From assembly GCA_018399745.1 (NCBI GenBank), contig JAGYNZ010000002.1:97826-161825 (forward strand): DNA of 64,000 nucleotides. Reading direction: 5' to 3'. The notes below the pieces were generated by a model. The model did no database searches. It was not told where the DNA came from and saw nothing but the letters and a program-made list of their open reading frames with translations. This DNA comes from Deltaproteobacteria bacterium (GTDB lineage: Bacteria; Desulfobacterota; Dissulfuribacteria; Dissulfuribacterales; UBA3076). The translations under genes and the position numbers were made by a program. Below are positions 4,651 through 23,848 of the stretch, in pieces (position 1 is the first letter of the stretch; the number at the start of each line of letters is the position of its first letter).

Positions 4651-5346
4651 TCAGGTGCCTTCTTTAAATAAATATCCCAGGCCTCTCACGGTTTCAATGT
4701 ACGAGGAGGCGGTGCCGAGTTTTTTTCTCAAGCGTCTTATATGGGTATCAATAGTTCTGTCATAACCACTGAATGAATAGCCCCACACATTCTCCAGAAG
4801 AATCTCACGCGTTCTTACCATTCCGGCATGGGACATCAGCTCATGAAGAAGGCGAAATTCAGTCATGGTGAGTTTTACTCGTTTCCGCTCTACGTGAACC
4901 AAGTGTTTAAGAGAATCCAACTCAACCGGCCCAATTTGTAATATTGTATCTGTCACTGCCGTCTCATCTGGATACACCCTTAACAGCACCGCTTTAACCC
5001 TCAAAACCAGTTCTCTCGGGCTAAAGGGTTTTACTATATAATCATCCGCTCCCAGTTCCAGTCCCAATATCCTGTCGGTCTCACCTCCCATTGCGGTCAC
5101 CATTATTATAGGAATATTAAAAAGCTCCTTGTCTTTTTTGAGCTGCTTACACAGTTCCAGACCATCCAAATCAGGTAGCATCAGATCCAGCAAAATCAGA
5201 TTAGGTTTATATTCTCTGGCCTGGGGAATTATCTTGCGCCCGGATGCCAAAATAAGGGTGTCAAATCTTGCCCGTTCGAGATTGTAGCAGATCAACTCCG
5301 CTATATCTCTTTCATCTTCTATTATGAGAACGCGCTTTTTTTTCAA
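4651..5346 (-). CDS. PhoB/OmpR-family response regulator without adjacent kinase
   Basis: Receiver (IIEDERDIAELI...LLDLMLPDLDG...VKPFSPREL) plus winged-helix (LTMTEFRLLHELMSHAGMVRTREILLENVWGYSFSGYDRTIDTHIRRLRKKLG). Confidence 0.9.
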   Translation of the reverse strand: MKKKRVLIIEDERDIAELICYNLERARFDTLILASGRKIIPQAREYKPNLILLDLMLPDLDGLELCKQLKKDKELFNIPIIMVTAMGGETDRILGLELGADDYIVKPFSPRELVLRVKAVLLRVYPDETAVTDTILQIGPVELDSLKHLVHVERKRVKLTMTEFRLLHELMSHAGMVRTREILLENVWGYSFSGYDRTIDTHIRRLRKKLGTASSYIETVRGLGYLFKEGT

Positions 5347-5431
5347 GGCTTTTTAGACACTTTCCCGTAGGCAATACCAGGTATTAAACCAAAGACTCAT
5401 AATGCCTTTATATTCAGCTAATTTTAAGAAA

Positions 5432-5471
5432 CTGTTAATATATTGTTATTTTTCTGTTTAGATTTCTTATT
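5432..5471 (+). promoter_or_regulatory. Weak candidate Pho box, 11-bp periodic, AT-rich
   Basis: CTGTTAA tata TTGTTAT tttt CTGTTTA gatt TCTTATT: four 7-mers with 4-bp spacers. Confidence 0.35.
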
Positions 5472-5648
5472 TTTGACTTGATGTGCCCGTTGGCATTGTA
5501 TTTCTTTTGAAAAGATCCTGGGTACTTTTGCCATATCAAGTGTAGTTTCGATAGTAAACTTTTATACGTGTCCTGAATTTCTTTAGGAAACCAGTAAAAG
5601 CCTCATAAGGCATTCAAGTCAGGGATAGTCCTCACGCCTCAAACCAGT

Positions 5649-5692
5649 CGTCACAGAATTTTCATAGAATTGTCATAATACCGTCACATTTC
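5649..5692 (+). promoter_or_regulatory. Candidate double Pho box upstream of the TonB operon
   Basis: Four direct 11-mers: cGTCACAgaat / tTTCATAgaat / tGTCATAatac / cGTCACAtttc. Matches the 7+4 layout and TGTCAYA core of PhoB sites. Confidence 0.75.
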
Positions 5693-5795
5693 TCTGTTAG
5701 CTTCTTCGGCTAATCGGGGCAGGGAGAGGTTTAGCCTGTCCGGGGTCTGGTTTTTTGCGTTTGCTGATCTTAGTCGACAAAAGGAGGGGTTTGTC

Positions 5796-7046
5796 ATGAG
5801 ACTGATCATCACAATGTACCGTTTTAGAAAACTGCTTACAGGGGTTGCGCTAGGATCACTGGTGTTACTGTCCGGATCTTTGCTCTTTGCCGGCGATCGG
5901 CCGCTCTCTTATCGGGAAACAAAGGTTATATATAAAGCCAAAGCGAGTCTCGATCGCGGAAACGCTCAGCAATGTGTTGATTTGCTGGAACAGTTTATCA
6001 GTAAAGATCACACGGATGTGCCTTATCAGTTCTATATGCTGCTGGGCAACGGCTGTTTCCAGTTGAATAATGCCGAGCAGGCTGGAGAGGCTTATAGAAA
6101 GGCCCTGACTATTAGGCCGGAGAACCCCGATCTTTTGGTCAATTATGCCACTGCCTTGTATATGCAAGAGAAATATAAAGAGGCCGCCGAGGCCTTTGCC
6201 AAGTCATTTAAGTGCAGGAAAGCCGAAGATCCTGACCTGCTGTACAGGGCTGGGGCCTGCTATTATCAAGGCGAACTCTATCGGGAGGCAAAGGGTGTCC
6301 TGGATACCCTTATGGCCCAGGCAGAGAGTCCCAGAAAAGAGTGGGTAGAACTTCTGGTCTTTACGGATGTAAAGCTGAAGAACTGGGATAATGCAATCAA
6401 AGTACTCAAAAAATTGGTACAGCAGGAACCAAATGATGCAAAGTTCTGGAAGCTTCTGGCCCATGTAAGCATAAACCAGGGCAATTATCAGGACTCGGTG
6501 GTAAGTCTGGAAATAGCCTATCACCTGAAGGATCCGTCAAAATCGGAGCTTGAAGGTCTGGCTTCTCTCTATTCATATCTGGGGGTTCCGCTTAAGGCAG
6601 CTGAGATCTTAACCAAGGCCTATGGCACGGATCAGGATACAAAGCAGCTCCTTCAAATTGCGCGGCTCTATGCCAGAGGATACATGCAGAATGATGCGCT
6701 CCGTCTTTACAGGATCGTCCTGCATGAAGTTCCCAGTGAAGTCCTGGTAAAAGAGATGATCTCTCTTCTGTATGAATCCTGCGAGTTTCATGAGATGGTC
6801 GCCCTTGTGGAGCAGGCAGTCAACCAGTATGGGTTTGATGATCCATCTCTTTATCTCATGAAAGGTTATGCAGCATGGCACCTTCAGGATTGGGATCTGG
6901 CCCAGTCTTCATTTAAGGTGGCCAGGGCCTCAAAACGGTACCGGAATCAGGCCGAAGGCGCTCTGGAAATCATTACCGGCCTTATGGCAGCCAAAACCAA
7001 TGTGATTGCCTCGGCTACGGATACCGTTCCAGAATCACATTCCTGA
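5796..7046 (+). CDS. TPR-repeat secreted protein of TonB gene cluster
   Basis: Signal-like N-terminus and multiple TPR motifs (NPDLLVNYATALYMQEKYKEAAEAFAKSFK...). First gene of the co-directional cluster. Confidence 0.75.
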   Translation: MRLIITMYRFRKLLTGVALGSLVLLSGSLLFAGDRPLSYRETKVIYKAKASLDRGNAQQCVDLLEQFISKDHTDVPYQFYMLLGNGCFQLNNAEQAGEAYRKALTIRPENPDLLVNYATALYMQEKYKEAAEAFAKSFKCRKAEDPDLLYRAGACYYQGELYREAKGVLDTLMAQAESPRKEWVELLVFTDVKLKNWDNAIKVLKKLVQQEPNDAKFWKLLAHVSINQGNYQDSVVSLEIAYHLKDPSKSELEGLASLYSYLGVPLKAAEILTKAYGTDQDTKQLLQIARLYARGYMQNDALRLYRIVLHEVPSEVLVKEMISLLYESCEFHEMVALVEQAVNQYGFDDPSLYLMKGYAAWHLQDWDLAQSSFKVARASKRYRNQAEGALEIITGLMAAKTNVIASATDTVPESHS

Positions 7047-7067
7047 TTTCCTGAGTCTAATAAGAGG

Positions 7068-7835
7068 ATGTTTTTAATGAGGAAAAGCGAAATTTTTATT
7101 GTCTTAATATGGTTCGGCCTGATGTTTTATGCTCCGGCGTTTGCCGAAGATGTAGGAGGCATAGAAAAGACTTTAACGAAGGCCATTCAGGAAGAAGTGG
7201 CCGCCCAGAAAGAAGTGGAGAAATGGTCTGTTGAGAAAGAAGCTATCATAAATGATTTGCTGGATCTGAAGACCCGTCTCGACTGGAACCGCTTCCAAAA
7301 CCACAAGTATAAGGCTTATGTATATCAGAAGGCGGAAGAGGTCAATGATCTCAAGACCCAGAAGGAAAAGCTTGCCAGGATGCGCATGGAACTGGAGCCT
7401 TATCTCAGCCGGATAGTCTCGGACCTGAAGGATCGGGTTGCATTTGATGCCCCGTTTCTCATTGAGGAGAGATCGAGGCGGATTGCGTTTCTGGAAGAGT
7501 CATTGCTGGATCCCAGCTTGAATTTGGGCGAGCGGTTGAGGCGGGTGCTGGAGGCACTTCGAGTGGAGGCAGAATATGGAAATTCAGTAGGGACCGAGGA
7601 AACAAAACTCGATCTCAATGGCGAGTCAACTCTGGTAACCATGACACGCGTCGGAAGAGTGGGGCTGTTTTATATCACAAACGATCGCAAACAGGCCGGT
7701 AAATGGGATGAGGTTTCACAGAGCTGGCAACCCGTCTCTGACGACTATCTGCCGGATATTCTTCGGACTAAGGAGATTATTCAGCAGAAGAGGGCGGCCG
7801 AGCTGGTGGATCTTCCAATGGGTCCGTCCCGGTAA
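7068..7835 (+). CDS. DUF3450-like periplasmic protein of TonB gene cluster
   Basis: Signal peptide, coiled coil, ...ERLRRVLEALRVEAEYGNSVGTEETKLDLNGESTLVTMTRVGRVGLFYITNDRKQAGKWDEVSQSWQPV, typical of DUF3450. Confidence 0.75.
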   Translation: MFLMRKSEIFIVLIWFGLMFYAPAFAEDVGGIEKTLTKAIQEEVAAQKEVEKWSVEKEAIINDLLDLKTRLDWNRFQNHKYKAYVYQKAEEVNDLKTQKEKLARMRMELEPYLSRIVSDLKDRVAFDAPFLIEERSRRIAFLEESLLDPSLNLGERLRRVLEALRVEAEYGNSVGTEETKLDLNGESTLVTMTRVGRVGLFYITNDRKQAGKWDEVSQSWQPVSDDYLPDILRTKEIIQQKRAAELVDLPMGPSR

Positions 7836-7861
7836 TTTTTTTAAAGAGGTGTGTTCAATAA

Positions 7862-9304
7862 ATGCAAGACTTTTGTAATTTTCGATACTGGACTGGCATA
7901 GCGATAATGTGTGCCGTCATAATGGCATCTCCATCTGGTGCTGTCGAACAAAGCGACAATGCCTGGAAGGCGGTGGTACAGGAACTCGAGGCAAGCAGTG
8001 CCAAATCTCTTTCCCGGGCAGAATTAGTGCAGGAACTGGTAAAGCAGGACAAAACTACCCTGCAAAAGGCCGTGGCTGAACTTAAAGCAATGGTATCAAC
8101 CGAGCAAAAGGAGCTATCCAGTCTTCAATCTCACTACCAAGAGCTGCTTGAACGGGAAAGCCAGTTGACAGAGGGCCTCAAGTCCGAGCAAGAGGAGATC
8201 AAAACAGTCCAGGGTACTGTAGTCGGCGCTGCTAAGGAGGGCCAAGACCTCTTAGAGAGCAGCACTCTTGGTTCAAGGTTTGGAGAACAGAGGTCGGTGC
8301 TGGACCGTATTATCGAGAAAAAACGCTTTCCCGGCATGGACGAGATTCGAGCCGAGGTGTCGCTGTTTCAGAGATATGCCGACCAGTCCGCCTCTATACA
8401 TAAACATCGCGGAGAATTCGTTGACGTCAAAGGACATTCGACAGAGGGCGATATGGTGCATATCGGCGGCATGGGGGCCTTATACCACACCAAAGACGCA
8501 GTAGGATACCTTAAATCTATGAGTAGCGGTGGTCTGGCTGCGGTGCCCGCTGACCTTGGATACGGCCTTCGCAGGTCACTCAAGGCCTTTATCAAGGGAG
8601 ACGCTGATAATGTACCTGTGGATATCTCCGGCGGAGCAGTGTTTATGGAATTGACACAGAAGAAGGGTTTTCGAGAGTGGATAGACTCAGGGGGGCTTCT
8701 GGTCTGGCCTATCTTCGGTATTGGACTGATAGCAATAGTTTTTTCGCTCGAACGTCTCTATTTTTTCCTCCGTATTCGGACTGACTCCGATCAAATCATA
8801 GAAGATGTCACGTCCCTGGTGGAGAATGATCGGATCGATGAATGCAAGCGCTATTGCCTGGAGAAAAAGAATCACCCCACGTGTCAGGTCTTGAGCAGTG
8901 GACTGGATCAAATAGGCGCCACTCAGGAGGTCTTTGAGAGTTCGCTTCAGGAGGCCATTCTTCGCCTCCTGCCCAGGTTCGAGAGGTTTATACCCACACT
9001 CGGCATGCTGGCTGCGGTAGCACCGCTTCTCGGGCTCTTGGGGACAGTTTCCGGAATGATAAATACATTCCATGTGATAACTATTTTTGGGACTGGTGAT
9101 CCAAAGCTAATGGCAGGTGGAATTTCAGAGGCACTGATTACCACGGAGCTTGGGCTCGCGGTAGCCATACCAGTGATGTTTATCCATCACTTCTTTGAGC
9201 GCCGAGTGGAATTGATTGTAGGCGATATGGAGGAAAAGGCTACGGCATTTACGTTGACCATTTTGAAATTCGGAAAGATCCTTCCGAAAGAGACTTCGAC
9301 TTGA
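7862..9304 (+). CDS. MotA/TolQ/ExbB proton-channel protein with large N-terminal periplasmic extension
   Basis: N-terminal signal and coiled-coil region, then GGLLVWPIFGIGLIAIVFSLERLYFFLR... and LGMLAAVAPLLGLLGTVSGMINTFHVI...EALITTELGLAVAIP. Confidence 0.9.
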   Translation: MQDFCNFRYWTGIAIMCAVIMASPSGAVEQSDNAWKAVVQELEASSAKSLSRAELVQELVKQDKTTLQKAVAELKAMVSTEQKELSSLQSHYQELLERESQLTEGLKSEQEEIKTVQGTVVGAAKEGQDLLESSTLGSRFGEQRSVLDRIIEKKRFPGMDEIRAEVSLFQRYADQSASIHKHRGEFVDVKGHSTEGDMVHIGGMGALYHTKDAVGYLKSMSSGGLAAVPADLGYGLRRSLKAFIKGDADNVPVDISGGAVFMELTQKKGFREWIDSGGLLVWPIFGIGLIAIVFSLERLYFFLRIRTDSDQIIEDVTSLVENDRIDECKRYCLEKKNHPTCQVLSSGLDQIGATQEVFESSLQEAILRLLPRFERFIPTLGMLAAVAPLLGLLGTVSGMINTFHVITIFGTGDPKLMAGGISEALITTELGLAVAIPVMFIHHFFERRVELIVGDMEEKATAFTLTILKFGKILPKETST

Positions 9305-9924
9305 TCCTGCTCTCAGACACCATTAAACAGGCCGTTAATTTTTTCGGGAGTGGCGGTGGGGTGATGTATCCCTTGCTTTTAGTGTCTTTGGTCCTCTGGA
9401 CCCTGATTATCAGAAAATCAAAGGAGTTGGTCACCAGCAGGCGCGAAGAGCAGGGAGTGGCAGAGTGCCTTTCTTCTCTGGCCCGAAACGAGCTTATCGG
9501 GGCTGAGTGGCAACGTGCCGTTATGAGGAACTTTTTGAGCTTGAGAAGCAGGGGTGGCGGCGATGATTTTGAGCTTATGAAACAACTCACCAGGGGAATC
9601 GTAACCAGGGTGGACGGATCCGTAAAGGCCATCCTGGTCTTGGCGGGAGTAGCCCCGCTCCTGGGACTTCTGGGAACTGTTGGCGGAATGATAACGACTT
9701 TCGATGTCATTTCCGGATTCGGGACTGGAAACGCCAGGGCTATGGCGTCGGGCATTTCAGAGGCCCTCGTCACTACTCAGACCGGACTGGTGGTGGCAGT
9801 CCCTGGACTGATCATCGGTAATTTGCTTCGGCGTAAGGTCGAAGGCGTCAAGAACAGAATGGATCTCTTTATGCGGGCACTGGTAACCGCCGGCAGAGAA
9901 GATCCAAGGTCTGATACCAATTAG
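9301..9924 (+). CDS. exbB: MotA/TolQ/ExbB proton-channel protein (second copy)
   Basis: VLAGVAPLLGLLGTVGGMITTFDVISGFGTGNARAMASGISEALVTTQTGLVVAVPGL. TTG start overlaps the stop of the previous gene (TTGA). Confidence 0.9.
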   Translation: MILLSDTIKQAVNFFGSGGGVMYPLLLVSLVLWTLIIRKSKELVTSRREEQGVAECLSSLARNELIGAEWQRAVMRNFLSLRSRGGGDDFELMKQLTRGIVTRVDGSVKAILVLAGVAPLLGLLGTVGGMITTFDVISGFGTGNARAMASGISEALVTTQTGLVVAVPGLIIGNLLRRKVEGVKNRMDLFMRALVTAGREDPRSDTN

Positions 9925-9933
9925 GAAGGTAGA

Positions 9934-10347
9934 ATGCAAGGCATTCGTATGCAATGGTCGAGGAAACGGGGAGAGGTTGCTCTTAACATGTCTCCGCTTA
10001 TCGATATGATCTTTATACTGCTTATTTTCTTTGTCGTGACTACGAGCTTTGTGAAGGAGTCCGGGGTAGATATCGAGAGGCCGGTGGCAAAAACGGCACA
10101 GCAGAAGACCAGCACCAATCTGGTCATCGGAGTTACCTCAGACAATATTGTGTACATCGAAGGGAGACCTATCGATGTACGTTCCGTTCAGTCCTATATG
10201 GAACGGTTCCTCATGGAGAATCCCACCGGATCGGTTGTGATCGCTGCGGATAAGAAGAGCCAGAGCGGCGTGGTGATCCAAGTCTTAGACGCCTGTCGAC
10301 TGGCAGGGGTCAAGAATCTCAGTATGGCCGCCAAATCCGAAGTATAG
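9934..10347 (+). CDS. exbD: ExbD/TolR biopolymer transport protein
   Basis: ALNMSPLIDMIFILLIFFVVTTSFVKESGVDIERP. Confidence 0.9.
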   Translation: MQGIRMQWSRKRGEVALNMSPLIDMIFILLIFFVVTTSFVKESGVDIERPVAKTAQQKTSTNLVIGVTSDNIVYIEGRPIDVRSVQSYMERFLMENPTGSVVIAADKKSQSGVVIQVLDACRLAGVKNLSMAAKSEV

Positions 10348-10384
10348 CAGGCAGAAACGGAATCGAGAGACCGGGATTCCCAAA

Positions 10385-11083
10385 ATGGTTCAAACAATAA
10401 ACAGTTCTCATGGACCTGGACATGCCCGATGGCTTGACATTGCCATTGCAGCAGGAGCGGCGGTAGGAATCAATGTGCTGATTTTTTTGTTCATTCCCTT
10501 TTTGTCCGAGGTCTCTCTGGATAAAAAGGCCAGCCAGCATATTGAGACCTTCAAGATCCAGACCAGCAGTATACGGGAGCGGGCGAAACCCATGCAGGAA
10601 AAACAAGAGCTGCCCAAGCCCAAGGAAATGCCCCGAATTCCGCCACCCAAGGCTATAGCCACCGGTTCTTTGCACGAGACCCCAGCCCGGCCACCGCAGA
10701 TGGAATTTGAAATACCCGAGTTCGAGGCGGCCAGTGGAAGTATGGAGTTCGGAACAATGGCATTTACCCCTCCTGCTCCGCCACAGACAGAATTTGACAT
10801 CGGACAGGTAGATAAACTGCCCCAGGTCATCAGCCGCATCCGTCCGGTCTATCCCGCTGCGGCCAAGCAAAAGAATATTGAGGGGGTGGTGGTAGTCAAA
10901 TTCAAGGTGACGACAGCGGGCACAGTGGAAAATGTTTCGGTGTTAAAGGCCAAGCCTGCTGGATATTTTGAAAAGGCGGCCATGGATGCGGTAAAGAAAT
11001 GGAAGTTCCAGCCAGGGATCGTGGAAGAAGAACCGGTGAATACCTGGATGACCGCCATGGTGAAATTTCGATTGGACTTTTGA
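10385..11083 (+). CDS. tonB: TonB-family energy transducer
   Basis: N-terminal TM, Pro-rich linker, C-terminal YPAAAKQKNIEGVVVVKFKVTTAGTVENVSVLKAKPAGYFEKAAMDAVKKWKFQPG. Confidence 0.9.
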   Translation: MVQTINSSHGPGHARWLDIAIAAGAAVGINVLIFLFIPFLSEVSLDKKASQHIETFKIQTSSIRERAKPMQEKQELPKPKEMPRIPPPKAIATGSLHETPARPPQMEFEIPEFEAASGSMEFGTMAFTPPAPPQTEFDIGQVDKLPQVISRIRPVYPAAAKQKNIEGVVVVKFKVTTAGTVENVSVLKAKPAGYFEKAAMDAVKKWKFQPGIVEEEPVNTWMTAMVKFRLDF

Positions 11084-11121
11084 AACGACAGGGCTGAGAG
11101 ATTTTTTAAAGGGAGAAACCT

Positions 11122-13917
11122 TTGATCACAACAGGATTTCGTTTGATTACATGTGCAGTAATGCTGTTTTTTATGCTCTATAGCAGTTTGGGCCTGGCAG
11201 GTGATGTGCTCGCGGACGATGGCGTTTTGTCAGGCCTGATTGTAGACAGGGATTCCGGAGAGGGTCTGATCGATGCCGGAATTGAGGTCCAACCCCTGGG
11301 GAAGAAGTGTTTTACGGATCTGGACGGCCGCTTCAGCCTGAAACTGCCTGAAGGCAAATATGATGTGCGCGTCTTTTATCCCATGTTCAATTCCAAGGAG
11401 TTGAAAAATATTGCCATAAAACCTGGCGAGATTCGGACCATTGAAGTTGCTCTCACTCCCCAGGAAGGCGAGATGGCCGTGGTCGAGGTAGTTGAGTCGG
11501 CTGAACGGGCTTCTGAGGCCACTCAGATTCTTCTCAGAAAAAAGGCCGCCGGGGTTACAGACAGGATAAGTGCCGAGGCCATTGCCAAGCTCCCGGCCTC
11601 CGACGCCGCCGAGATCCTCACCAAGGTAACCGGCGTCTCTTTGGTAAAGGATAAGTATGTGTATGTCAGAGGACTGGGGGACCGGTATGCCAAGGCTACC
11701 CTCAATGGTCTTCGCCTTCCGTCGCCGGAACCCGAAAAGAAGATTGTCCCAATGGATCTCTTCCCCAGCGAAACAATCAAGTCTATCAATGTAGTCAAGT
11801 CCTATACCCCTGACATGCCGGGTGAATTTTCCGGTGGTCTGGTCCAGATTGAGACCAGGGATCATCCCGATGGCTTTCAGTTAAAGGCCTCGCTCTCCAC
11901 GGGATATAATGACCAGACCACCGGTCGCGATTTCAAGACTTACAGAGGGAGTGACAAGGACTGGGCGGGTTTTGACAGCGGGTGCAGGGACATACCGGAT
12001 GTAATTCCTTCTGATTTCATCGAGCCCACTGGAGTTCTGGGTACTGGAGGTTATACCCCGGAGGAGATAACTGAATTTGGCCGTTCGTTTAAGAATATCT
12101 GGAACGCCAGGACCGAGACTGCTGATTTACCGATCGGTCTGGGATTTATGATCGGCGATAAGCTGGGCAGATTCGGCTATCTCGGAACCTTCAATTACAA
12201 GCACGAGTACCAGACCAAGACCAGCGAGCAGCGGACCTGGTACAACCTGGGCTACCAGGGCCGGCAGAATGTATATGCAGACTTTGATTTCGACACTTAC
12301 GAGGAGAAGGTTAACTGGGGCGGATTGCTCAACTTCGGATTTGAATTCAGTCCTTACCACAGGATGGCTTTCAAAAATTTTTATAACCGAAAGGCCACAG
12401 ACTCTGTTCGCGAATATGCAGGATACCATGAGACCTGGGGCGACGATATCTACGATCGACGCCTCAAATGGTCGGAGAATGATTTATATCAGGGTGAGCT
12501 GCGCGGAGATCACTATTTCGATGTTTTAAAGAGTGACGTGCAATGGCAAATAGGTTACAGCAAGGCCCAACTGGAAGAGCCTGACCAGAGGGAGGTGCAA
12601 TACTGGTGGGACAGTGAGTCCGAAACCACCCTGGCATGGCTGGACTCCACTCAGAGTGGAACCCGGTTTTTTGCCGATCTGGACGAAGACCGTTATGACT
12701 TCGGTCTTGACTGGAAGCTTGACGGGTCTGATATTTTCCGATTTCCGGTCGTCCTCAAGACAGGAATTTCCTATTACTGGCGGGAGCGGGAGTTCAACTA
12801 CCGCCGCTTTTGTATAACCCGGGGACCGGGGCAACTGGATTTCGATATTTTTGCCGATGCGGAAACGCTCTTTGCACCGGAACATTTCAGAGAACAGGAC
12901 GGTTTTCTCCTCAGGGAAGTTACCAGGCCTACTGACAAATATGACGCTACAGAGCGGAATGAGGCGGCATACGGCATGCTGGATTTCACTCTGTTCGACC
13001 GCCTGAGAGTTATAGCGGGCGTACGTGTGGAGGCCGACGACCTGGAGGTGGTCACCCTCAGTCCCTATACATTTAGGAGTGGAACCGAAGACAGGGCTGT
13101 CCTGGACGATGACGATACCTTCCCAGCGGCGAGTTTTGTATATTCGCTTACCGACAGTATGAATTTACGTCTCAGCTACTCGGAGACGGTTAACCGGCCG
13201 CAGTTCAGGGAGCTCGCTTCTTTTGAGTATATAGATGTGACGGAGACAGAGTCCGTAGTGGGCAATCCGGATCTCGTGACTGCCGAACTTGACAACTACG
13301 ATATCCGCTGGGAATGGTTCATTGGTGCAGATGAACTCTTGGCGGCCAGCTGCTTTTACAAAGACATCAGCCAGCCCATAGAGATTGTTCAACAACCTAC
13401 TTCCGCAGGCATGCGCCGTTACTATATAAATGCGGGCGATGGAGAAGTGACGGGCCTTGAACTTGAGCTGCGCAAACGTCTGGGTTTTCTGCATTCCTCT
13501 CTCGATAACCTGATGCTCAACATAAACTATACCTACACCGATTCGGAAGTAAAACTGGGACCTGACATGACCTCCATCATGACCAATGCTGAGCGTTCCA
13601 TGCACGGTCAGTCAGATAACCTGGCCAATGTGGTACTTGATTACACCGATCCGGATTTTGGTATAACCCTCAGACTTCTTTACAATTATGTTGGGAAGCG
13701 ACTGGACGTGGGTGCTGCTTACGGCCTGCCTGATATTTACGAAGAGGCAACCGAATGGCTGGACTTCGTTGCCGAAAAGCGGCTAGGTACATGGAAACTC
13801 AGGTTGGCCGCCAAGAACCTGCTGGATGAGGAGATCGAGTTCACTCAGGGAGGCAAGACTTACCGCAGATTCAAGGAAGGGGTCTCGGTCTCTTTCGGCC
13901 TATCAAAGCATTTTTAG
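11122..13917 (+). CDS. TonB-dependent outer-membrane receptor with N-terminal carboxypeptidase-regulatory-like domain
   Basis: Signal, GLIVDRDSGEGLIDAGIEV...TDLDGRFSLKLPEGKYDV domain, plug (DAAEILTKVTGVSLVKDKYVYVRGLGDRYAKATLNGLRLPSPEP), beta barrel ending SVSFGLSKHF. Predicted TTG start. Confidence 0.9.
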   Translation: MITTGFRLITCAVMLFFMLYSSLGLAGDVLADDGVLSGLIVDRDSGEGLIDAGIEVQPLGKKCFTDLDGRFSLKLPEGKYDVRVFYPMFNSKELKNIAIKPGEIRTIEVALTPQEGEMAVVEVVESAERASEATQILLRKKAAGVTDRISAEAIAKLPASDAAEILTKVTGVSLVKDKYVYVRGLGDRYAKATLNGLRLPSPEPEKKIVPMDLFPSETIKSINVVKSYTPDMPGEFSGGLVQIETRDHPDGFQLKASLSTGYNDQTTGRDFKTYRGSDKDWAGFDSGCRDIPDVIPSDFIEPTGVLGTGGYTPEEITEFGRSFKNIWNARTETADLPIGLGFMIGDKLGRFGYLGTFNYKHEYQTKTSEQRTWYNLGYQGRQNVYADFDFDTYEEKVNWGGLLNFGFEFSPYHRMAFKNFYNRKATDSVREYAGYHETWGDDIYDRRLKWSENDLYQGELRGDHYFDVLKSDVQWQIGYSKAQLEEPDQREVQYWWDSESETTLAWLDSTQSGTRFFADLDEDRYDFGLDWKLDGSDIFRFPVVLKTGISYYWREREFNYRRFCITRGPGQLDFDIFADAETLFAPEHFREQDGFLLREVTRPTDKYDATERNEAAYGMLDFTLFDRLRVIAGVRVEADDLEVVTLSPYTFRSGTEDRAVLDDDDTFPAASFVYSLTDSMNLRLSYSETVNRPQFRELASFEYIDVTETESVVGNPDLVTAELDNYDIRWEWFIGADELLAASCFYKDISQPIEIVQQPTSAGMRRYYINAGDGEVTGLELELRKRLGFLHSSLDNLMLNINYTYTDSEVKLGPDMTSIMTNAERSMHGQSDNLANVVLDYTDPDFGITLRLLYNYVGKRLDVGAAYGLPDIYEEATEWLDFVAEKRLGTWKLRLAAKNLLDEEIEFTQGGKTYRRFKEGVSVSFGLSKHF

Positions 13918-13932
13918 AAGAATTTAAAGAAA

Positions 13933-13961
13933 CTGTAATAGAACTGTAATCAAACTGTCAC
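13933..13961 (+). promoter_or_regulatory. Candidate Pho box upstream of the beta-helix gene
   Basis: CTGTAAT agaa CTGTAAT caaa CTGTCAC: three 7-mers with 11-bp periodicity, close to the PhoB consensus CTGTCAT-N4-CTGTCAT. Confidence 0.75.
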
Positions 13962-14005
13962 AAATGTCGGTCAAAATAAGGGAAATTACACAGGAGGTTG
14001 TTAAA

Positions 14006-15739
14006 ATGTTAAGAGAAACGATTTATCATTGGTCCTTAAAGACGATCCAGGGGTTTATGTTGGCCCTTGGTCTTATGTGGGCCGGAACTGCACTGGCGTT
14101 GGATGCCCAGGGTGACATTACCACTAACACTACCTGGGGAGAAGACGTTCAGCTTACAGGGGTCGTAACCGTGAAGGCCCCGGCGGTCCTCACCATCAGT
14201 CCGGGAGTTACGATTTACGGCAATGCCACGACTGCACTGATCATTGAGCGGGGGGCCAAGATAATGGCCATAGGGACCCCTGAGGAGCCCATCGTGTTTA
14301 CCAGTAACTCGATTTCCCCGACCAGAATGGACTGGGGGGGATTAGCCATCAATGGTTATGCCCCTATCAATAATGCAGGGGCATTCAGCTGTCCCGGTAA
14401 TCCCCCGAACGCGGTGGGTGAGGCGGGCATGGGCGAATACGGCGGTTGCGATCCTCATGACAGCAGCGGCATCCTGCGCTATGTCAGGATTGAGTACGGC
14501 GGATACAGGATGGACGGAGAAAACGAGTGGAATGCCTTGACTCTTCAGGGGGTAGGTGACGGAACCATCATAGAGTATGTACAGTGCCACATGAACAGCG
14601 ACGACGGGATCGAGTTTTTCGGTGGTACGGTCAATGCACGAAATATCCTGAACAGCGGCTGTGCCGACGACCACTTTGACTGGACTAACGGCTATACCGG
14701 CAAGGCACAGTTCATTGTGGCCCATAAGGCAGACGATGACGGTGACCGCGGTATTGAGGGGGATAACCTTAAGGCGGACAATGTCGCTCAGCCAGTATCG
14801 CATCCTACCGTGTACAACATGACCCTGGTGGGTAATGCAAATATTCCGGATGGCGGCGGCGAAGGCATATTGCTCCGGCGCGGGAGCGCAATGACTTTAA
14901 AGAACTCTATAGTAACCGGTTTTCAAAAGGCGGCCGTCGACCTGGATAATGAGGCCACTTTTGTGGGGATCAATACAGGGGATCTGGTTATTGATAACTG
15001 TATATTCTATGACAACCTGGACGGACAGAACTTCAATGCGGACGAAAGCGATGAAGAAGGTTATACGCCCACTGTTACGACGGGAGACTTTATTACGTCC
15101 ATAATGTCCTATAACCGAGTAGTTGATCCAGGGCTTGCAAGCACCTCTTTCCAGAGTCCTGATCTCAGGCCTGATATGTTTTCCCCCGTATTCGCCGGGG
15201 CCGCTGCCGTTCCTGCGGACGGATTTTTCGTGGAGAACGCGGATTTCATAGGGGCATTCGACTCAGAGTATGACTGGACCAAGGGGTGGACCAGCTTCGG
15301 AGGCAGTCTCCCCCGAATCCCTGTTCCCACAGGCTTCCACGAATACTGGTATTATCCACAAAACTATCCTTATACGTCGGCAAATCCCAGTTTGTCCAGG
15401 CCAATCAGTTTCGGATGCATGGATCGTGGCGAGCTGGATATACGCATAGGGCTACACTCATTTGCCAGTCCCATGGATATCTATTGCGGTTTAATGCTGC
15501 CTGATGGAATCATTTATACTATAGGCGAGAACATGCAAATTCGTGGACTATCGGATATGCAGCCCTGGAAACGCAGTCAGACACACTCGGTCTATGAAAA
15601 CATTCTCTCAGGAAGCGGCTTTTCCTGGCCTCATGGACTTTATGCGGGATTTGTTATGGCAGTCCCGGCCGGTACCAATGTAGCCACCATGGGTATGGAT
15701 GCCTGTGGATACTTCTGGGGATTTTTGCTGGCACTGTAA
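14006..15739 (+). CDS. Secreted beta-helix-like protein paired with TonB-dependent receptor
   Basis: Start moved from 13964 to ATG 14006 (AGGAGG site; signal MLRETIYHWSLKTIQGFMLALGLMWAGTALA). Repetitive VKAPAVLTISPGVTIYGN...WGGLAINGYAPINN...LRYVRIEYGGYR...NALTLQGVGDGTIIEYVQCHMNSDDGIEFFGGTVN. Confidence 0.75.
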   Translation: MLRETIYHWSLKTIQGFMLALGLMWAGTALALDAQGDITTNTTWGEDVQLTGVVTVKAPAVLTISPGVTIYGNATTALIIERGAKIMAIGTPEEPIVFTSNSISPTRMDWGGLAINGYAPINNAGAFSCPGNPPNAVGEAGMGEYGGCDPHDSSGILRYVRIEYGGYRMDGENEWNALTLQGVGDGTIIEYVQCHMNSDDGIEFFGGTVNARNILNSGCADDHFDWTNGYTGKAQFIVAHKADDDGDRGIEGDNLKADNVAQPVSHPTVYNMTLVGNANIPDGGGEGILLRRGSAMTLKNSIVTGFQKAAVDLDNEATFVGINTGDLVIDNCIFYDNLDGQNFNADESDEEGYTPTVTTGDFITSIMSYNRVVDPGLASTSFQSPDLRPDMFSPVFAGAAAVPADGFFVENADFIGAFDSEYDWTKGWTSFGGSLPRIPVPTGFHEYWYYPQNYPYTSANPSLSRPISFGCMDRGELDIRIGLHSFASPMDIYCGLMLPDGIIYTIGENMQIRGLSDMQPWKRSQTHSVYENILSGSGFSWPHGLYAGFVMAVPAGTNVATMGMDACGYFWGFLLAL

Positions 15740-15773
15740 TACTATTACTTGAAGTGATACAGACTTGCACAAC

Positions 15774-15819
15774 ACCGGAAGGGGGGTGCCTCTCCTCACG
15801 TGTATACCCCCCTGCCGGT
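15774..15819 (+). terminator. Strong hairpin downstream of the beta-helix gene, probable terminator
   Basis: ACCGG..GGGGGGT ... ACCCCCC..CCGGT; no long T tract, so only a probable terminator. Confidence 0.5.
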
Positions 15820-15918
15820 CTATTCAGACTGATTTCCTTGTAATAATATTTACTCTGTGCCGTCAAAGAGAATGGACAGAAATACGATTAAAAATCCCTG
15901 TTCGCGTTCATCTATAAA

Positions 15919-16329
15919 ATGTTTGAAGAAGTAAGTGCATCAGAGGAAAAAATATTAGTCGTAGAGGATGAAAAAGATCTGGTCAGTTTACTGGAATATA
16001 ATCTGGCGAAAAAGGGATATGTTCCTATGGCGGCCCTGGATGGACTGACTGCGTGTCGCATGATTGAAGAGAGACAGCCGGATTTGATTCTCCTTGATAT
16101 AATGCTTCCAGATTTGAGCGGATGGGAAGTTTGCCGGATCGTGCGCAACCACAAAAATGAAAAAATTTCGAATACCCCTATTATTATGCTTACCGCCCTG
16201 AGTGGCGATGAAGACAGACTCAGGGGCCTTAAGCTTGGTGCAAATTATTATATTTCCAAACCCTTTGAAATCAGAAATCTGTTACTTAACGTAGCGTCGT
16301 TGATAAGTGGCGGAAAAGGGCAACAATAG
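15919..16329 (+). CDS. Stand-alone receiver-domain response regulator
   Basis: ILVVEDEKDLVSLLEYNLAKKGY...LILLDIMLPDLSGWEVCRIV...TALSG...YYISKPFEIRNLLLNVASLIS; no output domain. Confidence 0.85.
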   Translation: MFEEVSASEEKILVVEDEKDLVSLLEYNLAKKGYVPMAALDGLTACRMIEERQPDLILLDIMLPDLSGWEVCRIVRNHKNEKISNTPIIMLTALSGDEDRLRGLKLGANYYISKPFEIRNLLLNVASLISGGKGQQ

Positions 16330-17255: not shown

Positions 17256-19040
17256 TCATGCAGATGATTTGGGTAAATGTAACGCAAAAATGCTGCCCTT
17301 TCCCGGAGTGCTCTGAACAGATACGTGGCCGCCATGTGTCTGAGCAATGTGTTTGACAATGGCAAGACCCAGCCCGGTTCCTCCCATTTCCCGGCTTCGA
17401 GCCTTGTCTACCCGGTAAAATCTTTCAAAGATACGGGATAAATGTGTTTTTTCTATTCCGCAACCCTGATCACGTACGCTCACAATTATCTCTTTTTCCG
17501 CTTTAACTGCTTCAACCCAGACGTTTTTTTTCTCACCGCTATATTTAATGGCATTATCAATGAGGTTTACAAACGCATGTTCAAGGAGCGACGGATCGAA
17601 TTTTGCTACTATGTCTTCAGCACAAGTCAGCTTTACGTCTATTTTCTTGGTCATGGCACTGACTTCACAGACCTGGATAGCGGTTTCGAGAACATCCCTT
17701 AGTCTGCCCTCATTCAGTACGACTTCTTCTGCTCCAGTCTTCTGCTCAAGCTTAGAGAGTCTCAGGAGGTCATCAATAATGGCCTCAAGGCGATTCACGT
17801 GTTTGTCGATTATTTCTAAAAATCGTTCGGCATACTCAGGATTTTTAGCCGCGCCATCACGAAGAGTCTCCACGAATCCCTTAATGGCAGTGATCGGAGT
17901 TTTTATTTCATGTGATACATTGGCCACAAACTCACGCCTAATCTTTTCAAGTCTCAGAAGGCGTGTCACATCATTTAAAACTATAAGTGCGCCTATTTGT
18001 TTCCCTTCCGCATCACGGAGCAATGTGCCATGCCCGTTAAGAAAAAGCTCGCTGCCAGAAGAAGACAGGAAAATTTCTTTTTCAACCGCCTCTTGGCTGG
18101 ATAATACCTTTTTCACAAATTGCTGAAGAACCGTATTTCTTACCACTTCTTGAATGCTTCGGCCTTGTACCTCAGCAAAATTGCATCCGAACATCTCGGC
18201 GGCAGCGTGGTTCATGCTTAAAACCCGCTCCCCCATGTCCACGGCAATGACTCCTTCAACCATGCTGGAGAGCATGGCCTCAATCTCGTTTCGCTGCCGC
18301 CTCACCGTGTCAATATGTTCACGAAGCTCAACTGCCATCCGGTTCAGCGATTCGGCAAGGGCTCCAATTTCTTCGGATTCAGTAACTTGTGGTCTCAAGA
18401 GGATTTCACCGCGAGTGATGGATTCGGCCCAGATCTTGATGCGCTCTATGGGACGGGTAATGCTGCGAGAAACAAAGAGACTGAGTACCGCAGCAAATAA
18501 AGCTACTATAAGACCTCCAAACGCAATCTTGATCTTGATATTATTTAAAAGCAAATCTAAATCATTTACAGGGACTGATGTGCGGACAACCGCAAGGATG
18601 CGGCTTTTTTTCTTAACAGGTATTCCTACGTACATCATATCCTTTTCCAGGGTCCGACTGTGCCGTATGGATTTGCCTGATGGACCATTCAAGGCATCAA
18701 TGAATTCCATCCTGTCCAAATGGTTGTCCATGCCTGCCGGATCCCTCTCAGAATCTCCAACGACTTTGCCGGAGGGGAGTATTATGGTAATACGGGTTGC
18801 AGTAGTTTCGCCGATTTTTTTGCACAATCCGTCAACAGCCTTTTCATCTATGGGATCAAGATATTTTAAGACCTGTTTTTCAACAAACTGAGCTCGTATT
18901 TTGAGATCGGAAGCGGTTTGTTCAAGCAAAAAATGCTTCAAAGATGCAGATGTATACCATGTTGCAGCTATCAGAGAGATAATAGTGACCAATATATAGG
19001 ATGGATAGAGTTGCCAGAGCAGCCGTTTCTTTTTTTTCAT
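17256..19040 (-). CDS. phoR: Phosphate-type sensor histidine kinase (PhoR-like)
   Basis: Two TMs, HAMP, PAS, HisKA (FVANVSHEIKTPITAIKGFVETL), HATPase (NLIDNAIKYS, DQGCGI, GGTGLGLAIVKHI). Adjacent to phoB and pst. Confidence 0.9.
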   Translation of the reverse strand: MKKKKRLLWQLYPSYILVTIISLIAATWYTSASLKHFLLEQTASDLKIRAQFVEKQVLKYLDPIDEKAVDGLCKKIGETTATRITIILPSGKVVGDSERDPAGMDNHLDRMEFIDALNGPSGKSIRHSRTLEKDMMYVGIPVKKKSRILAVVRTSVPVNDLDLLLNNIKIKIAFGGLIVALFAAVLSLFVSRSITRPIERIKIWAESITRGEILLRPQVTESEEIGALAESLNRMAVELREHIDTVRRQRNEIEAMLSSMVEGVIAVDMGERVLSMNHAAAEMFGCNFAEVQGRSIQEVVRNTVLQQFVKKVLSSQEAVEKEIFLSSSGSELFLNGHGTLLRDAEGKQIGALIVLNDVTRLLRLEKIRREFVANVSHEIKTPITAIKGFVETLRDGAAKNPEYAERFLEIIDKHVNRLEAIIDDLLRLSKLEQKTGAEEVVLNEGRLRDVLETAIQVCEVSAMTKKIDVKLTCAEDIVAKFDPSLLEHAFVNLIDNAIKYSGEKKNVWVEAVKAEKEIIVSVRDQGCGIEKTHLSRIFERFYRVDKARSREMGGTGLGLAIVKHIAQTHGGHVSVQSTPGKGSIFALHLPKSSA

Positions 19041-19044
19041 AACT

Positions 19045-19731
19045 CTATTCCCTGAATCGATATCCTATTCCACGGACCGTCTCGATATAGCTGCCTGCAG
19101 GCCCGAGTTTCTTTCGCAACCCAACGATCTGAACATCCACCGAACGATCAGTGACCGAATAATCCTCTCCACGGACGGCTTCGACGATCTGGCATCGGGT
19201 AAAGACCCATCCCGGCCTTCTCGCAATATAATTAAGGATGGCGAATTCCGTGAAAGTCAATTGGACAGGAACACCCTTGAAGAGCACCTCATGACGCCTG
19301 GGATCAATTTGGATATCGTGAATTCGAAGAACCGATGCCTGTTCCTGCGGTCCTTTTATATTCCTGCGGAGAACCGCTCGGACTCTTGCTATAAGGACGC
19401 GCGGACTGAAAGGTTTTGTGATGTAGTCGTCAGCTCCAAGCTCCAGGCCTGTTACGATATCCGCTTCTTCGCCCTTGGCTGTTAACATAACAATAGGTAT
19501 GTTTCTGGTATCTGGATCATTTTTCAGGCGTCTTGTTATTTCGAGACCATCCATATCTGGCAGCATAAGATCCAGTATTATGAGATCAGGGTATTCTGAC
19601 CTCACGAGGTGTACGGCCTGCTTGCCTGATCCGGCACAAAAAACCTGAAAACCTTCTCGCGATAGATTGAATTTCAGTAGCTCCAGGATATCTTCTTCAT
19701 CATCTACCGCGAAAACCTTTTCGTTTGACAT
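19045..19731 (-). CDS. phoB: PhoB-like response regulator
   Basis: Receiver plus winged helix (LTFTEFAILNYIARRPGWVFTRCQIVEAVRGEDYSVTDRSVDVQIVGLRKKLGPAGSYIETVRGIGYRF). Confidence 0.9.
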   Translation of the reverse strand: MSNEKVFAVDDEEDILELLKFNLSREGFQVFCAGSGKQAVHLVRSEYPDLIILDLMLPDMDGLEITRRLKNDPDTRNIPIVMLTAKGEEADIVTGLELGADDYITKPFSPRVLIARVRAVLRRNIKGPQEQASVLRIHDIQIDPRRHEVLFKGVPVQLTFTEFAILNYIARRPGWVFTRCQIVEAVRGEDYSVTDRSVDVQIVGLRKKLGPAGSYIETVRGIGYRFRE

Positions 19732-20324
19732 AGACGAGACCTTTGCCCGGGATAAAATTCTACCAACTTATTTTTCCCCAAGCCCTTTACTCAAATTTAT
19801 TTTAACTTAAAATTTTATATCTTTTAAGCTGTATTAAGGCTCCATAGGAGTTATGTAAGTAATTCAAAACGAGTCTGTTTCACCATGTTTTTGCCTCTGC
19901 GCTCTTTTGTATGCGTAACGGCATATAAAACAGATTATTTATTAAATATAGTATATAACTTTTATCTTCAACAAATAAAAAAGGTCATGCAAGGCCTCAG
20001 AAGATTCATCGATTATTTATCTGTCGCTAGACCGTCCTATAGTTTCATGCAAATTTAATTTTTTCCTAATCAGAATCTAACAATCATAAGAAATAATGCG
20101 CCCTGCAGAGTAATTCTATGGCATGATTACACTGTGTACCAAGACCTGGACCCAGATTCGGCGAAAAATGTTCCAAATTTAGATTACTGTAATAGGTCCA
20201 AAATCCAAAGAGCTGTCATAATCAACTTGTTTGCCTTCAGCTCTCAGGCAACACCCCAGATAGGGGATTTAATTAGAATCATAAATATTTTATTTAAAAA
20301 TCATAGTACCCGGAGGAAAAGGAG

Positions 20325-21143
20325 ATGAAATTGAAACATATCGCTATTTTCGCACTTGCATTGGTTTTTTCTTTTACATCAACGCAGGTGTTCGCGGGGA
20401 ATCTGGTAATCAAAGGTTCTACCACGGTTTTACCTATTGCACAAAAAGTGGCAGAGGCCTATATGAAGCAAAATCCGAATGTGAAGATCTCAATTTCTGG
20501 TGGCGGGTCAGGCAACGGAATAAAGGCCCTTATTGATGGAAGCACGGATATTGCGGATAGCTCAAGATTCATAAAGCCGAAGGAAATAAGCCTTGCTGTG
20601 GAGAAAGGGGCCTATCCAGTGCCTTTTGCCGTTGCCTATGACTGCATTGTTCCGATAGTCCATCCCAGCAATTCTGTGGTAAATCTGACCATGGCTCAGC
20701 TCAAGACAATTTATAAAGGAGAAATAAAAAACTGGAAAGAATTAGGCGGTCCCGACAGGCCGATTGTGGTCATCTCCCGCGATACATCCTCAGGGACCTA
20801 CGAAGTATGGCAAGATAAAGTCATGGAAAAGGAACGGGTTTTCCCAGGGGCACTGCTCCAGGCATCAAACGGGGCCGTTGCGCAAGCCGTTTCAAAAAAC
20901 CAAAATGCCATTGGTTATATAAGTCTCGGATATCTGGACAAGGGCATAAAGTCTTTAACGGTGGATAAGATTACGGGATCTGAGGAAACGACACTGAATG
21001 GGACATACCCTGTCAGCAGGCCTCTTTATATGTTCACGAGCGGCTGGCCGGAGGGGAATACGCTCAATTTCATCAACTTTGTTCTGAACCCGGAAAAGGG
21101 TCAGCAATACGTGCGCGATGTGAGGTATGTACCTTTGTATTAA
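20325..21143 (+). CDS. pstS: Phosphate ABC transporter substrate-binding protein
   Basis: Signal peptide; IKGSTTVLPIAQKVAEAYMKQNPNVKISISGGGSGNGIKALIDGSTDIADSSR; RDTSSGTYEVW. Confidence 0.95.
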   Translation: MKLKHIAIFALALVFSFTSTQVFAGNLVIKGSTTVLPIAQKVAEAYMKQNPNVKISISGGGSGNGIKALIDGSTDIADSSRFIKPKEISLAVEKGAYPVPFAVAYDCIVPIVHPSNSVVNLTMAQLKTIYKGEIKNWKELGGPDRPIVVISRDTSSGTYEVWQDKVMEKERVFPGALLQASNGAVAQAVSKNQNAIGYISLGYLDKGIKSLTVDKITGSEETTLNGTYPVSRPLYMFTSGWPEGNTLNFINFVLNPEKGQQYVRDVRYVPLY

Positions 21144-21243
21144 GATACTATTTCTTCGTACGAAAAGTGAGAATCAAAGGCCACATGTATGGTACTGATA
21201 AAACATGTCTGCCCGTGGCCAACTCATCAGCAAAACCTAAAAT

Positions 21244-22155
21244 ATGGCAAAAAATAGCCAAACAGGAAAGGGCCGTCAGAGAAGAGAAAGGGCAATAACC
21301 CTCTTTTTCTTCTCTGTCGCACTGACCTCCATAACAATATTGACCTTAATCGTTATTTTCCTTTTTTGGGAAGGCATTCCTATCTTCAGCAAGGTCTCTA
21401 TTTACGATTTCCTGTTCGGACATTACTGGTACCCCACTGATGACCCCCCTGATTTTGGTATCTTTCCACTGATCGTCGCATCCTTGGCTGTTACTGCTTT
21501 GTCTGCTGTTATTTCCATTCCGCTGGGGGTGATGACCGCCCTCTATCTTGCGGAGTCTGCATCTGCTCGATTGAGGGAATGGGTAAAGCCTATCGTGGAA
21601 CTTCTGGCAGCCCTCCCTTCGGTGGTCATCGGTTTCTTCGGCATGGTAATAGTTGCTCCCTTCCTTCAGGAAATCTTTGATGTCCCTACCGGCTTAAATC
21701 TTTTCAATGCGTCACTTATGCTGGCATTCATGTCCGTCCCTACCATCTGCAGTATTTCTGAAGATGCCATTTATAGTGTACCGCTTGAACTCAAAGAGGC
21801 CTCTCTGGCCCTGGGAGCTACCAAGTATGAGACCATCGCCAGAGTGGTCCTTCCAGCGTCTCTATCAGGCATTTCCACTGCCATAATTCTTGGTATGTCC
21901 AGGGCAATTGGCGAGACCATGGTAGTGTTGATGATTGCCGGCGGAGCAGCCCAATTGCCGTCTTCAATATTTGACCCGGTCCGTCCCATGCCTGCAAGCA
22001 TTGCTGCAGAGATGGCCGAGGCCCCTTTCCGCAGCGATCACTATCACGCCCTGTTTGCCACCGGTGTCGTATTATTTGCTTTTACCCTGCTTTTCAACCT
22101 GTTGTCCGAACACATCTCCAACAAATACAGGCAGGTTGGAGCTGCAACTTTGTGA
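21244..22155 (+). CDS. pstC: Phosphate ABC transporter permease PstC
   Basis: Multiple TMs; EASLALGATKYETIARVVLPASLSGISTAIILGMSRAIGETMVVLMIAG. Confidence 0.95.
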   Translation: MAKNSQTGKGRQRRERAITLFFFSVALTSITILTLIVIFLFWEGIPIFSKVSIYDFLFGHYWYPTDDPPDFGIFPLIVASLAVTALSAVISIPLGVMTALYLAESASARLREWVKPIVELLAALPSVVIGFFGMVIVAPFLQEIFDVPTGLNLFNASLMLAFMSVPTICSISEDAIYSVPLELKEASLALGATKYETIARVVLPASLSGISTAIILGMSRAIGETMVVLMIAGGAAQLPSSIFDPVRPMPASIAAEMAEAPFRSDHYHALFATGVVLFAFTLLFNLLSEHISNKYRQVGAATL

Positions 22156-22179
22156 TTTAAAACCTGATTTTTTAAATCT

Positions 22180-23064
22180 ATGAGCCCTGAAGCCATGAAT
22201 AAATCAAGCAGTCTTTCGCGGCGTCGCAAACTGATCCAGGCATCAATTTTTGGACTTTTCAGGCTCTCCGCTGCCATAAATGGAATCGCATTGTTCGTTA
22301 TAGTCTATTTTCTTGTGGCGAGAGGGTGGCGGGCCATCAACTGGACATTCCTTACACAGCCACCCAGGGAAGCAATGACCGAAGGGGGAATTTTGCCCTG
22401 TATCGTCGGCACACTCTACCTGGGTCTAGGGGCCATTCTTGTGGCCCTTCCCATTGGAGTTACCTCTGCGGTCTATCTTAATGAGTATGCACGTCCAGGC
22501 CGTTTACTTCGTGCTATCCGTATAGGGATCAACAACCTCGCCGGTGTGCCTTCCGTGGTCTTTGGTCTCTTTGGTCTCGCCTTCTTTGTAGTATGGTTAA
22601 AAATGGGTGTCAGCATCCTCGCTGGTTCCCTGACGCTGGGAGTACTCACCCTGCCAGTAATTATCGGATCTTCAGAGGAGGCCATGAGGTCCGTCCCGGA
22701 CACCTACCGGGAGGCTTCTCTGGCCCTGGGAGCCACTAAATGGAAGACCATATACAGGGTAGTCCTGCCAGCCGCTCTGCCCGGAATACTTACCGGTGCC
22801 ATCCTCGGGATCAGCCGTGCCGCAGGGGAGACGGCCCCCATCATGTTTACAGCAGCCGTGTTTTATACCCCTTCTCTTCCGGCATCTGTTTTTGATGAAA
22901 TCATGGCCCTGCCCTATCATATCTATGTGCTGGCTACGGCGGGAACAGAGATTGAAGCCACACGACATCTCCAGTATGGAACCGCCCTTGTGCTGATTGT
23001 CCTGGTATTGGGCCTGAATCTTTTTGCCATTATCTACCGCGCACGCCTTCAAAGACGGAGGTGA
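22180..23064 (+). CDS. pstA: Phosphate ABC transporter permease PstA
   Basis: EASLALGATKWKTIYRVVLPAALPGILTGAILGISRAAGETAPIMFTA. Confidence 0.95.
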   Translation: MSPEAMNKSSSLSRRRKLIQASIFGLFRLSAAINGIALFVIVYFLVARGWRAINWTFLTQPPREAMTEGGILPCIVGTLYLGLGAILVALPIGVTSAVYLNEYARPGRLLRAIRIGINNLAGVPSVVFGLFGLAFFVVWLKMGVSILAGSLTLGVLTLPVIIGSSEEAMRSVPDTYREASLALGATKWKTIYRVVLPAALPGILTGAILGISRAAGETAPIMFTAAVFYTPSLPASVFDEIMALPYHIYVLATAGTEIEATRHLQYGTALVLIVLVLGLNLFAIIYRARLQRRR

Positions 23065-23070
23065 TGCATA

Positions 23071-23832: not shown

Positions 23833-23848
23833 AAGGGAGGATTTTTTT

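Follow-up and report, generated by a model that had tools for sequence, protein, structure and literature searches.

Gene content of the island

The subject of this study is a gene island in a stretch of 64,000 nucleotides, here called the window, from a Deltaproteobacteria bacterium of the Dissulfuribacterales (lineage UBA3076; GenBank assembly GCA_018399745.1, contig JAGYNZ010000002.1, positions 97,826 to 161,825). The corresponding genome comprises 2.65 Mb in 88 contigs. The island combines a complete TonB energizer, a single TonB-dependent receptor and a secreted beta-helix protein, and it adjoins phoBR and pstSCAB-phoU. Its sequence features suggest that it is probably a phosphate-starvation (Pho regulon) outer-membrane island for phosphorus scavenging. 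Genes were assigned to families by Pfam profile matches, and the following features were found:

4651-5346 (-), orphan PhoB-type response regulator, divergent from the TonB operon (Response_reg and Trans_reg_C)
5796-7046 (+), TPR periplasmic protein, TtpD-like (TPR)
7068-7835 (+), DUF3450 protein, TtpB-like in position and length (PF11932, 2.8e-68)
7862-9304 (+), extended ExbB, TtpC-like (MotA_ExbB at 337-457 of 480 aa)
9301-9924 (+), second ExbB (MotA_ExbB)
9934-10347 (+), ExbD (PF02472)
10385-11083 (+), TonB (TonB_C, 4.4e-23)
11122-13917 (+), TonB-dependent receptor with N-terminal CarboxypepD_reg domain, plug and barrel (Pfam)
14006-15739 (+), secreted beta-helix protein, 577 aa (AlphaFold2; start from Shine-Dalgarno sequence and sister species)
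15919-16329 (+), lone receiver domain, doubtful as a core part (Response_reg)
17256-19040 (-), PhoR-type histidine kinase (HAMP, PAS, HisKA, HATPase)
19045-19731 (-), PhoB (Pfam)
20325-24523 (+), pstSCAB-phoU (PBP_like_2, two BPD_transp_1, ABC_tran, PhoU)

The full TonB unit, the single receptor and the beta-helix protein lay where the initial annotation of this DNA had placed them, and all ten genes from 4651 to 16329 and their families were confirmed by Pfam. The same holds for the adjoining genes phoR, phoB, pstS, pstC, pstA, pstB and phoU at 17256-24523. With DUF3450 protein, extended ExbB, ExbB, ExbD, TonB and TPR protein, the Ttp-type (TonB2-like) energizer set is complete within the island. 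Profile searches of the genome revealed three TonB_C genes, the island TonB among them, and five receptor barrels above the curated cut-off. The window receptor is the only one of its kind in the genome.

The initial annotation had also described the island as bracketed by an orphan PhoB-like regulator and a lone receiver. The positions of both were correct, but neither is secure as a core part of the island, because in the sister species G005 the counterpart of the lone receiver (L080:826-906(-)) has shrunk to about its last 27 codons and that of the orphan regulator (L080:11284-11971(+)) is apparently frameshifted or misassembled. The best NCBIfam match of the orphan regulator was TIGR02154 (PhoB) with 248 bits, under the cut-off of 296 bits, and its sequence is 51-52% identical to that of an orphan regulator at the same place in a locus of the same phylum (L070). 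PhoB models strongly matched all 27 regulators scanned, two of which are the window's, the other 25 having been chosen for their similarity to these two.

Pho-box-like sites in the window and the genome

The Escherichia coli Pho box consists of 11-bp units with the consensus CTGTCATAWAW. The textbook E. coli model, which was not trained on the window, was applied to both strands with 200 dinucleotide shuffles as control. The sites of interest are:

5648-5691 (+), predicted Pho box of the TonB operon, four 11-bp units, in the top class of sites in window and genome
13933-13965 (+), predicted Pho box of the beta-helix gene, three 11-bp units, TGTMAY x3 with zero mismatches
5421-5461 (no strand assigned), additional 11-bp-periodic stretch by the regulator start, a candidate box only, fully conserved in G005
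L176:3576-3620 on contig C11 (+), four 11-bp units in the dialect of the operon site, upstream of a phoA-type gene (motif scan)

The window's four top-scoring two-unit sites all fell within 5648-5691 and 13933-13965, and none of the 200 shuffles scored as high as either site. The 11-bp-periodic repeats that had been noted initially ahead of the operon and of the beta-helix gene thus ranked at the top of the window. Throughout the genome, TGTMAY x3 at 11-bp spacing with up to two mismatches occurred at seven places, four of them within the two island sites, compared to one match of a reversed-pattern control. The sole occurrence with zero mismatches is that at 13933-13965. Both island sites are unchanged, base for base, in G005, and about 130 bp immediately ahead of the operon site are deleted in that species.

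Without mismatches, the repeated motif TCAYANAA occurred only twice in the genome, at the operon site and upstream of phoA; as the pattern was derived after inspection of these two sites, the result excludes a third place with this dialect and is not a prediction of their resemblance. A control pattern gave four matches in total at up to three mismatches. The phoA-side site precedes the alkaline phosphatase gene by about 150-190 nt and was the top three-unit site of its 5-kb locus under the independent E. coli-consensus model. The phosphatase itself, with an N-terminus resembling a signal peptide, is the only PF00245 match in the genome.

The receptor and the beta-helix protein

The receptor has a length of 931 residues. 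No relative was obtained at E<=0.001 when the PDB was searched with its sequence, and no STN signalling domain was detected by Pfam. The CarboxypepD_reg domain, plug, barrel and own Ton genes of the window receptor correspond to the feature set of an Oar-type receptor. A SusCD-type phosphate utilization system (PusCD) was considered and rejected: the SusC model reached 32.8 bits against a cut-off of 368, and no SusD-family match was found by Pfam among the cluster genes.

For the beta-helix gene, the start initially placed at 13964 was replaced by the ATG at 14006, which is most likely the actual start and would give 577 residues. This start was preferred because it is preceded by AGGAGG (13992-13997) and because the reading frame from 13964 is interrupted in G005 by a one-base insertion and a TGA. 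The predicted protein carries a Sec-type signal ending in GTALA-LDAQ that contains no cysteine and hence no lipobox. AlphaFold2 modelled it with a mean pLDDT of 82 as a right-handed beta-helix at about residues 32-430, predicted with high confidence (mostly >90), followed by a less certain C-terminal beta domain at about residues 467-576. Profile searches against Pfam, NCBIfam and PHROG gave no match, and PDB sequence searches with the protein and with its 56-member profile yielded nothing usable. The fold matches of the beta-helix comprise tailspikes, alginate epimerases, pectate lyases and similar proteins.

The C-terminal stretch (residues about 425-560) is also present in further proteins of this genome and its order (L018, L025, L029, L032) and is possibly a shared sorting or anchoring domain.

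Receptor, beta-helix protein and Pho boxes in related loci

A scan of named genomes gave at least 583 relatives of the beta-helix protein. The best 80, which were analysed, belong to Poribacteria, Latescibacteria, Myxococcota, Acidobacteria, Gemmatimonadetes, Bacteroidetes, and Alpha- and Gammaproteobacteria; these loci are not independent (about ten are from Poribacteria and six from Aquimarina), so that counts overstate the number of events. A receptor occurred in 67 of the 80 loci and was adjacent and on the same strand in 58. ExbD or TonB was encoded near the beta-helix gene in 14. A pst/phoU cluster was present nearby in seven loci and a PhoB-type regulator in 17; by a rough estimate for 17-kb stretches and 4-Mb genomes, chance alone would yield clearly fewer than one pst cluster in all 80 loci combined. 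The distances between receptors and those between beta-helix proteins were strongly correlated (r = 0.864, n = 63; permuted maximum 0.177), with shared species history accounting for part of this correlation. The best three-unit Pho site was located within 600 nt upstream of the receptor or beta-helix gene in 30 of 86 loci, whereas permuted motifs gave a mean of 11.7 (sd 4.0, maximum 25) and reached 30 in none of 200 cases. A survey of this kind had been proposed together with the initial annotation, and its outcome is in line with a conserved association of receptor, beta-helix protein and Pho boxes.

Within the same phylum, receptor and beta-helix gene occurred together in eight of ten loci. 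Genes for Pst, PhoBR or a PhoB-type regulator were found near the pair in L070, L071, L073, L074, L078 and L079, with reshuffled gene order. Genes of the Ttp-type motor (DUF3450/TtpC) are located with the beta-helix gene in L071, L072, L073, L079 (no receptor within the stretch read) and G005, and L070 carries tonB-exbB-exbD-exbD in its place. The island is patchy, since only one of seven congeners checked, G005, carries the beta-helix gene. In Alphaproteobacteria, the receptor gene is followed by gspC and gspD in L162, L154, L149 and L142, by gspC in L139, and by gspD in L143 and L135. A simple lipobox test was passed by 27 of 93 homologous open reading frames. A Pfam tally of the related loci revealed no recurrent phosphatase, phytase or nuclease among the neighboring genes; single cases are a polyphosphate kinase (L089), a calcineurin-type phosphoesterase (L070) and a Porin_5 porin (L073).

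Comparison with known systems

In Caulobacter crescentus, elpS (CC0170) is followed by CC0171, which encodes a TonB-dependent receptor, and by gspC onward (PMC2996285). ElpS is made under phosphate starvation, is located on the cell surface, is associated with phosphatase activity, and does not depend on the type II system to pass the outer membrane (PMC2996285). The elpS promoter is PhoB-dependent (PMC5172544), and the Caulobacter PhoB regulon contains several TonB receptors (PMC11208175). ElpS (CC0170/CCNA_00169) with CC0171 resembles the window pair in that a secreted protein is encoded beside a TonB-dependent receptor; for its PhoB-dependent induction by low phosphate, the predicted Pho boxes of the window serve as a proxy. 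Alphaproteobacterial relatives of the window protein occur in the published elpS-CC0171-gspC order. However, elpS encodes a lipoprotein and adjoins a type II secretion cluster, while the window protein lacks a lipobox and has its own C-terminal domain. The window pair, unlike ElpS/CC0171, has a dedicated TonB unit and is located next to phoBR-pst. Based on the alphaproteobacterial synteny and the published statements, the window protein may be regarded only as a relative of ElpS; it was not filed as ElpS proper because the lipobox is missing.

Flavobacterium johnsoniae encodes the receptor Fjoh_0545 and the lipoprotein FII (Fjoh_0546) beside phoBR, both strongly induced by low phosphate, and FI-FIII are modestly homologous to a low-phosphate-inducible Caulobacter lipoprotein (PMC8115612). 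Compared by description, this locus (PUSIV) shares with the window a receptor with plug, CarboxypepD-type domain and OMP_b-brl_3 and a pectin-lyase-fold protein next to phoBR. It differs in that the partner is a lipoprotein and that no dedicated TonB/ExbB/ExbD is reported in the cluster; in addition, plant-associated Bacteroidetes are reported to be without PstSABC, unlike the genome of the window.

With regard to the energizer, the TonB2 system of Vibrio vulnificus consists of TtpB2, TtpC2, ExbB2, ExbD2, TonB2 and the TPR protein TtpD2 (PMC6957404). The six kinds of component are the same as in the island, and TtpB has 255 aa, as has the DUF3450 protein of the window. In contrast, the Vibrio system is iron-regulated and serves siderophore use, and its TPR gene comes last rather than first. 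PUMA3 of Pseudomonas aeruginosa (vreAIR, phdA-pdtB-exbB2D2-tonB4) is PhoB-controlled with experimentally demonstrated Pho boxes (PMC4971064) and provides ExbB/ExbD/TonB genes under PhoB. However, it is driven via the sigma factor VreI, its receptor-like VreA lacks a barrel, and a receptor/beta-helix pair of the window family is not described there. By description, Oar/PopC of Myxococcus xanthus likewise has a CarboxypepD_reg-type receptor with its own Ton system and a secreted partner protein, but serves a developmental role with a protease as cargo and no reported link to Pho.

A phosphate-linked TonB receptor with a secreted protein of the window family has thus already been published, in 2010 and in 2020. 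The novel aspects are that the unit occupies a single locus and includes its own Ttp energizer, that the beta-helix family, for which no structure has been solved, extends over many phyla, and that other lineages have a conserved third partner. A literature search combining beta-helix, phosphate starvation and TonB receptors retrieved no paper. Low-phosphate TonB receptors have so far been known from proteomics and regulon lists, and the present locus displays regulator, motor, gate, putative surface protein and Pst together in one place. Receptor and beta-helix protein form a defined pair to study in tractable relatives (Caulobacter elpS/CC0171 and Flavobacterium Fjoh_0545/0546), in which experiments can directly address the phosphorus ligand or the direction of transport.

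A proposed role in phosphorus scavenging and its alternatives

PhoB-type control and a role in phosphorus acquisition, as put forward in the initial annotation, are well supported at the level of sequence by the genome-wide ranking of the Pho boxes, by the dialect that the operon site has in common with phoA, and by the pst/phoBR linkage and Pho boxes in distant relatives. Among relatives with expression data, elpS is PhoB-dependent (PMC5172544) and Fjoh_0545/0546 are strongly induced by low phosphate (PMC8115612). Binding-site evidence and analogy support regulation by low phosphate, and the data from related loci support a close pairing of receptor and beta-helix protein. The location of the beta-helix protein at the surface, the direction of transport, with import of a phosphorus ligand, and each step involving the ligand are inferred. 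At low phosphate, PhoB or the neighboring paralogue would bind both 11-bp-repeat sites and would turn on the Ttp-type ExbB/ExbD/TonB energizer together with the receptor and, separately, the beta-helix gene. The beta-helix protein, outside or at the surface, would probably bind or cut a phosphorus-containing polymer or complex, the product of which the receptor would draw into the periplasm with TonB energy. There, the co-regulated PhoA-type phosphatase may free phosphate, to be taken in by PstSCAB.

Several observations weigh against this interpretation. While 11-bp-repeat boxes are found in the island and also at a known Pho gene, the pstS/pst promoter region has only a weak Pho box under the same model. 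Among the 80 related loci, just 19 have pst or PhoB-type genes nearby, several of the contigs being short. The fold search of the PDB with the beta-helix model gave generic matches only, with low TM-scores. Finally, CC0171 was reported to be constitutive, and no change in intracellular phosphate was measured (PMC2996285).

The island might instead be a phosphate-starvation secretion device, in which TonB energy pushes the beta-helix protein of roughly 60 kDa through its own Oar-type receptor, as Oar does PopC, and in which the receptor may also import the freed product. We consider this unlikely, although several findings point in its direction. The N-terminal domain PF13620 is as in Oar (PMC6434023), and Oar works with a neighboring Ton system and moves a protein of 50.8 kDa (PMC6434023, PMC11658791). 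Each beta-helix protein goes with a single receptor, and the divergence of the two is strongly correlated; in the Myxococcus relative L156, the consecutive gene order is tonB-exbB-exbD-exbD-receptor-beta-helix. The protein of the window carries a signal peptide and no lipobox, and ElpS, as mentioned above, requires no type II system (PMC2996285). However, a CarboxypepD_reg-type domain is common in nutrient receptors such as Fjoh_0545, many relatives of the beta-helix protein are lipoproteins by the simple test, and Oar is 300-400 residues longer than typical receptors, compared to the 931 residues here. Moreover, a type II-like secretin cluster elsewhere in the genome could export the protein. 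If export took place, TonB-powered protein export would, given the recurrence of the pair in many phyla, be general rather than a Myxococcus curiosity, and it would explain how ElpS crosses the outer membrane.

It is improbable that receptor and TonB unit function mainly as a sensor of a phosphorus ligand that informs the orphan regulator and the lone receiver, with transport being secondary. The position of these two genes around the cluster would fit, as would PUMA3, in which the PhoB-controlled exbB2D2 and tonB4 go along with a receptor-like VreA that seems to function in signalling only (PMC4971064). The window receptor, in contrast, has a full barrel and a CarboxypepD_reg domain with no STN domain detected, the cluster contains no sigma/anti-sigma pair, and in the sister species little is left of the receiver and the orphan regulator seems to carry a frameshift. 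It is very improbable that the island is an ordinary TonB system for iron, cobalamin or glycans that adjoins phoBR by chance: Ttp-type systems of Vibrio serve siderophores (PMC6957404) and the beta-helix fold matches mostly polysaccharide-active proteins, but the Pho boxes belong to the top class in the genome, a dialect is shared with the phoA site, and both Pho boxes and linkage to pst/phoBR recur in distant phyla, so that chance proximity and an iron system were rejected on this Pho-box and neighborhood evidence.

Additional genes in the window and in related loci

Behind phoU, the window encodes a 455-aa protein without Pfam match (24791-26158(+)). It shares 52% identity with a protein near pstB-phoU in L079, weakly resembles the Porin_5 protein behind phoBR in L073, and is a candidate phosphate-related porin. 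Away from the island, the genome harbors a type II secretion-like cluster (L177, contig C23:26000-40000) with genes for a secretin, a pseudopilin-like protein and GspE/F-like proteins.

Ten alpha- and gammaproteobacterial relatives of the beta-helix protein (L128, L135, L139, L142, L143, L149, L152, L160, L162, L164) are about 900-1000 aa long and show two tandem beta-helix matches; most of these pass the simple lipobox test, L128 does not. The third partner is a protein of roughly 180-200 aa without Pfam match that is encoded directly behind the beta-helix gene in about 26-28 related loci, e.g. L071:4223-4804(-), L086:11148-11699(+), L089:11281-11787(+) and L159:10448-11074(+), and is absent from the window. 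It occurs in Poribacteria, Latescibacteria, Acidobacteria, Gemmatimonadetes, Myxococcota and Thermodesulfobacteriota. AlphaFold2 predicted an alpha+beta fold (pLDDT 88), and the fold search hinted weakly at NTF2-like proteins. In Thermodesulfobacteriota loci only, it is followed by a second small protein without Pfam match (L071:3666-4205(-), L072:17624-18163(+), L073:10851-11423(+), L074:5315-5866(-)).

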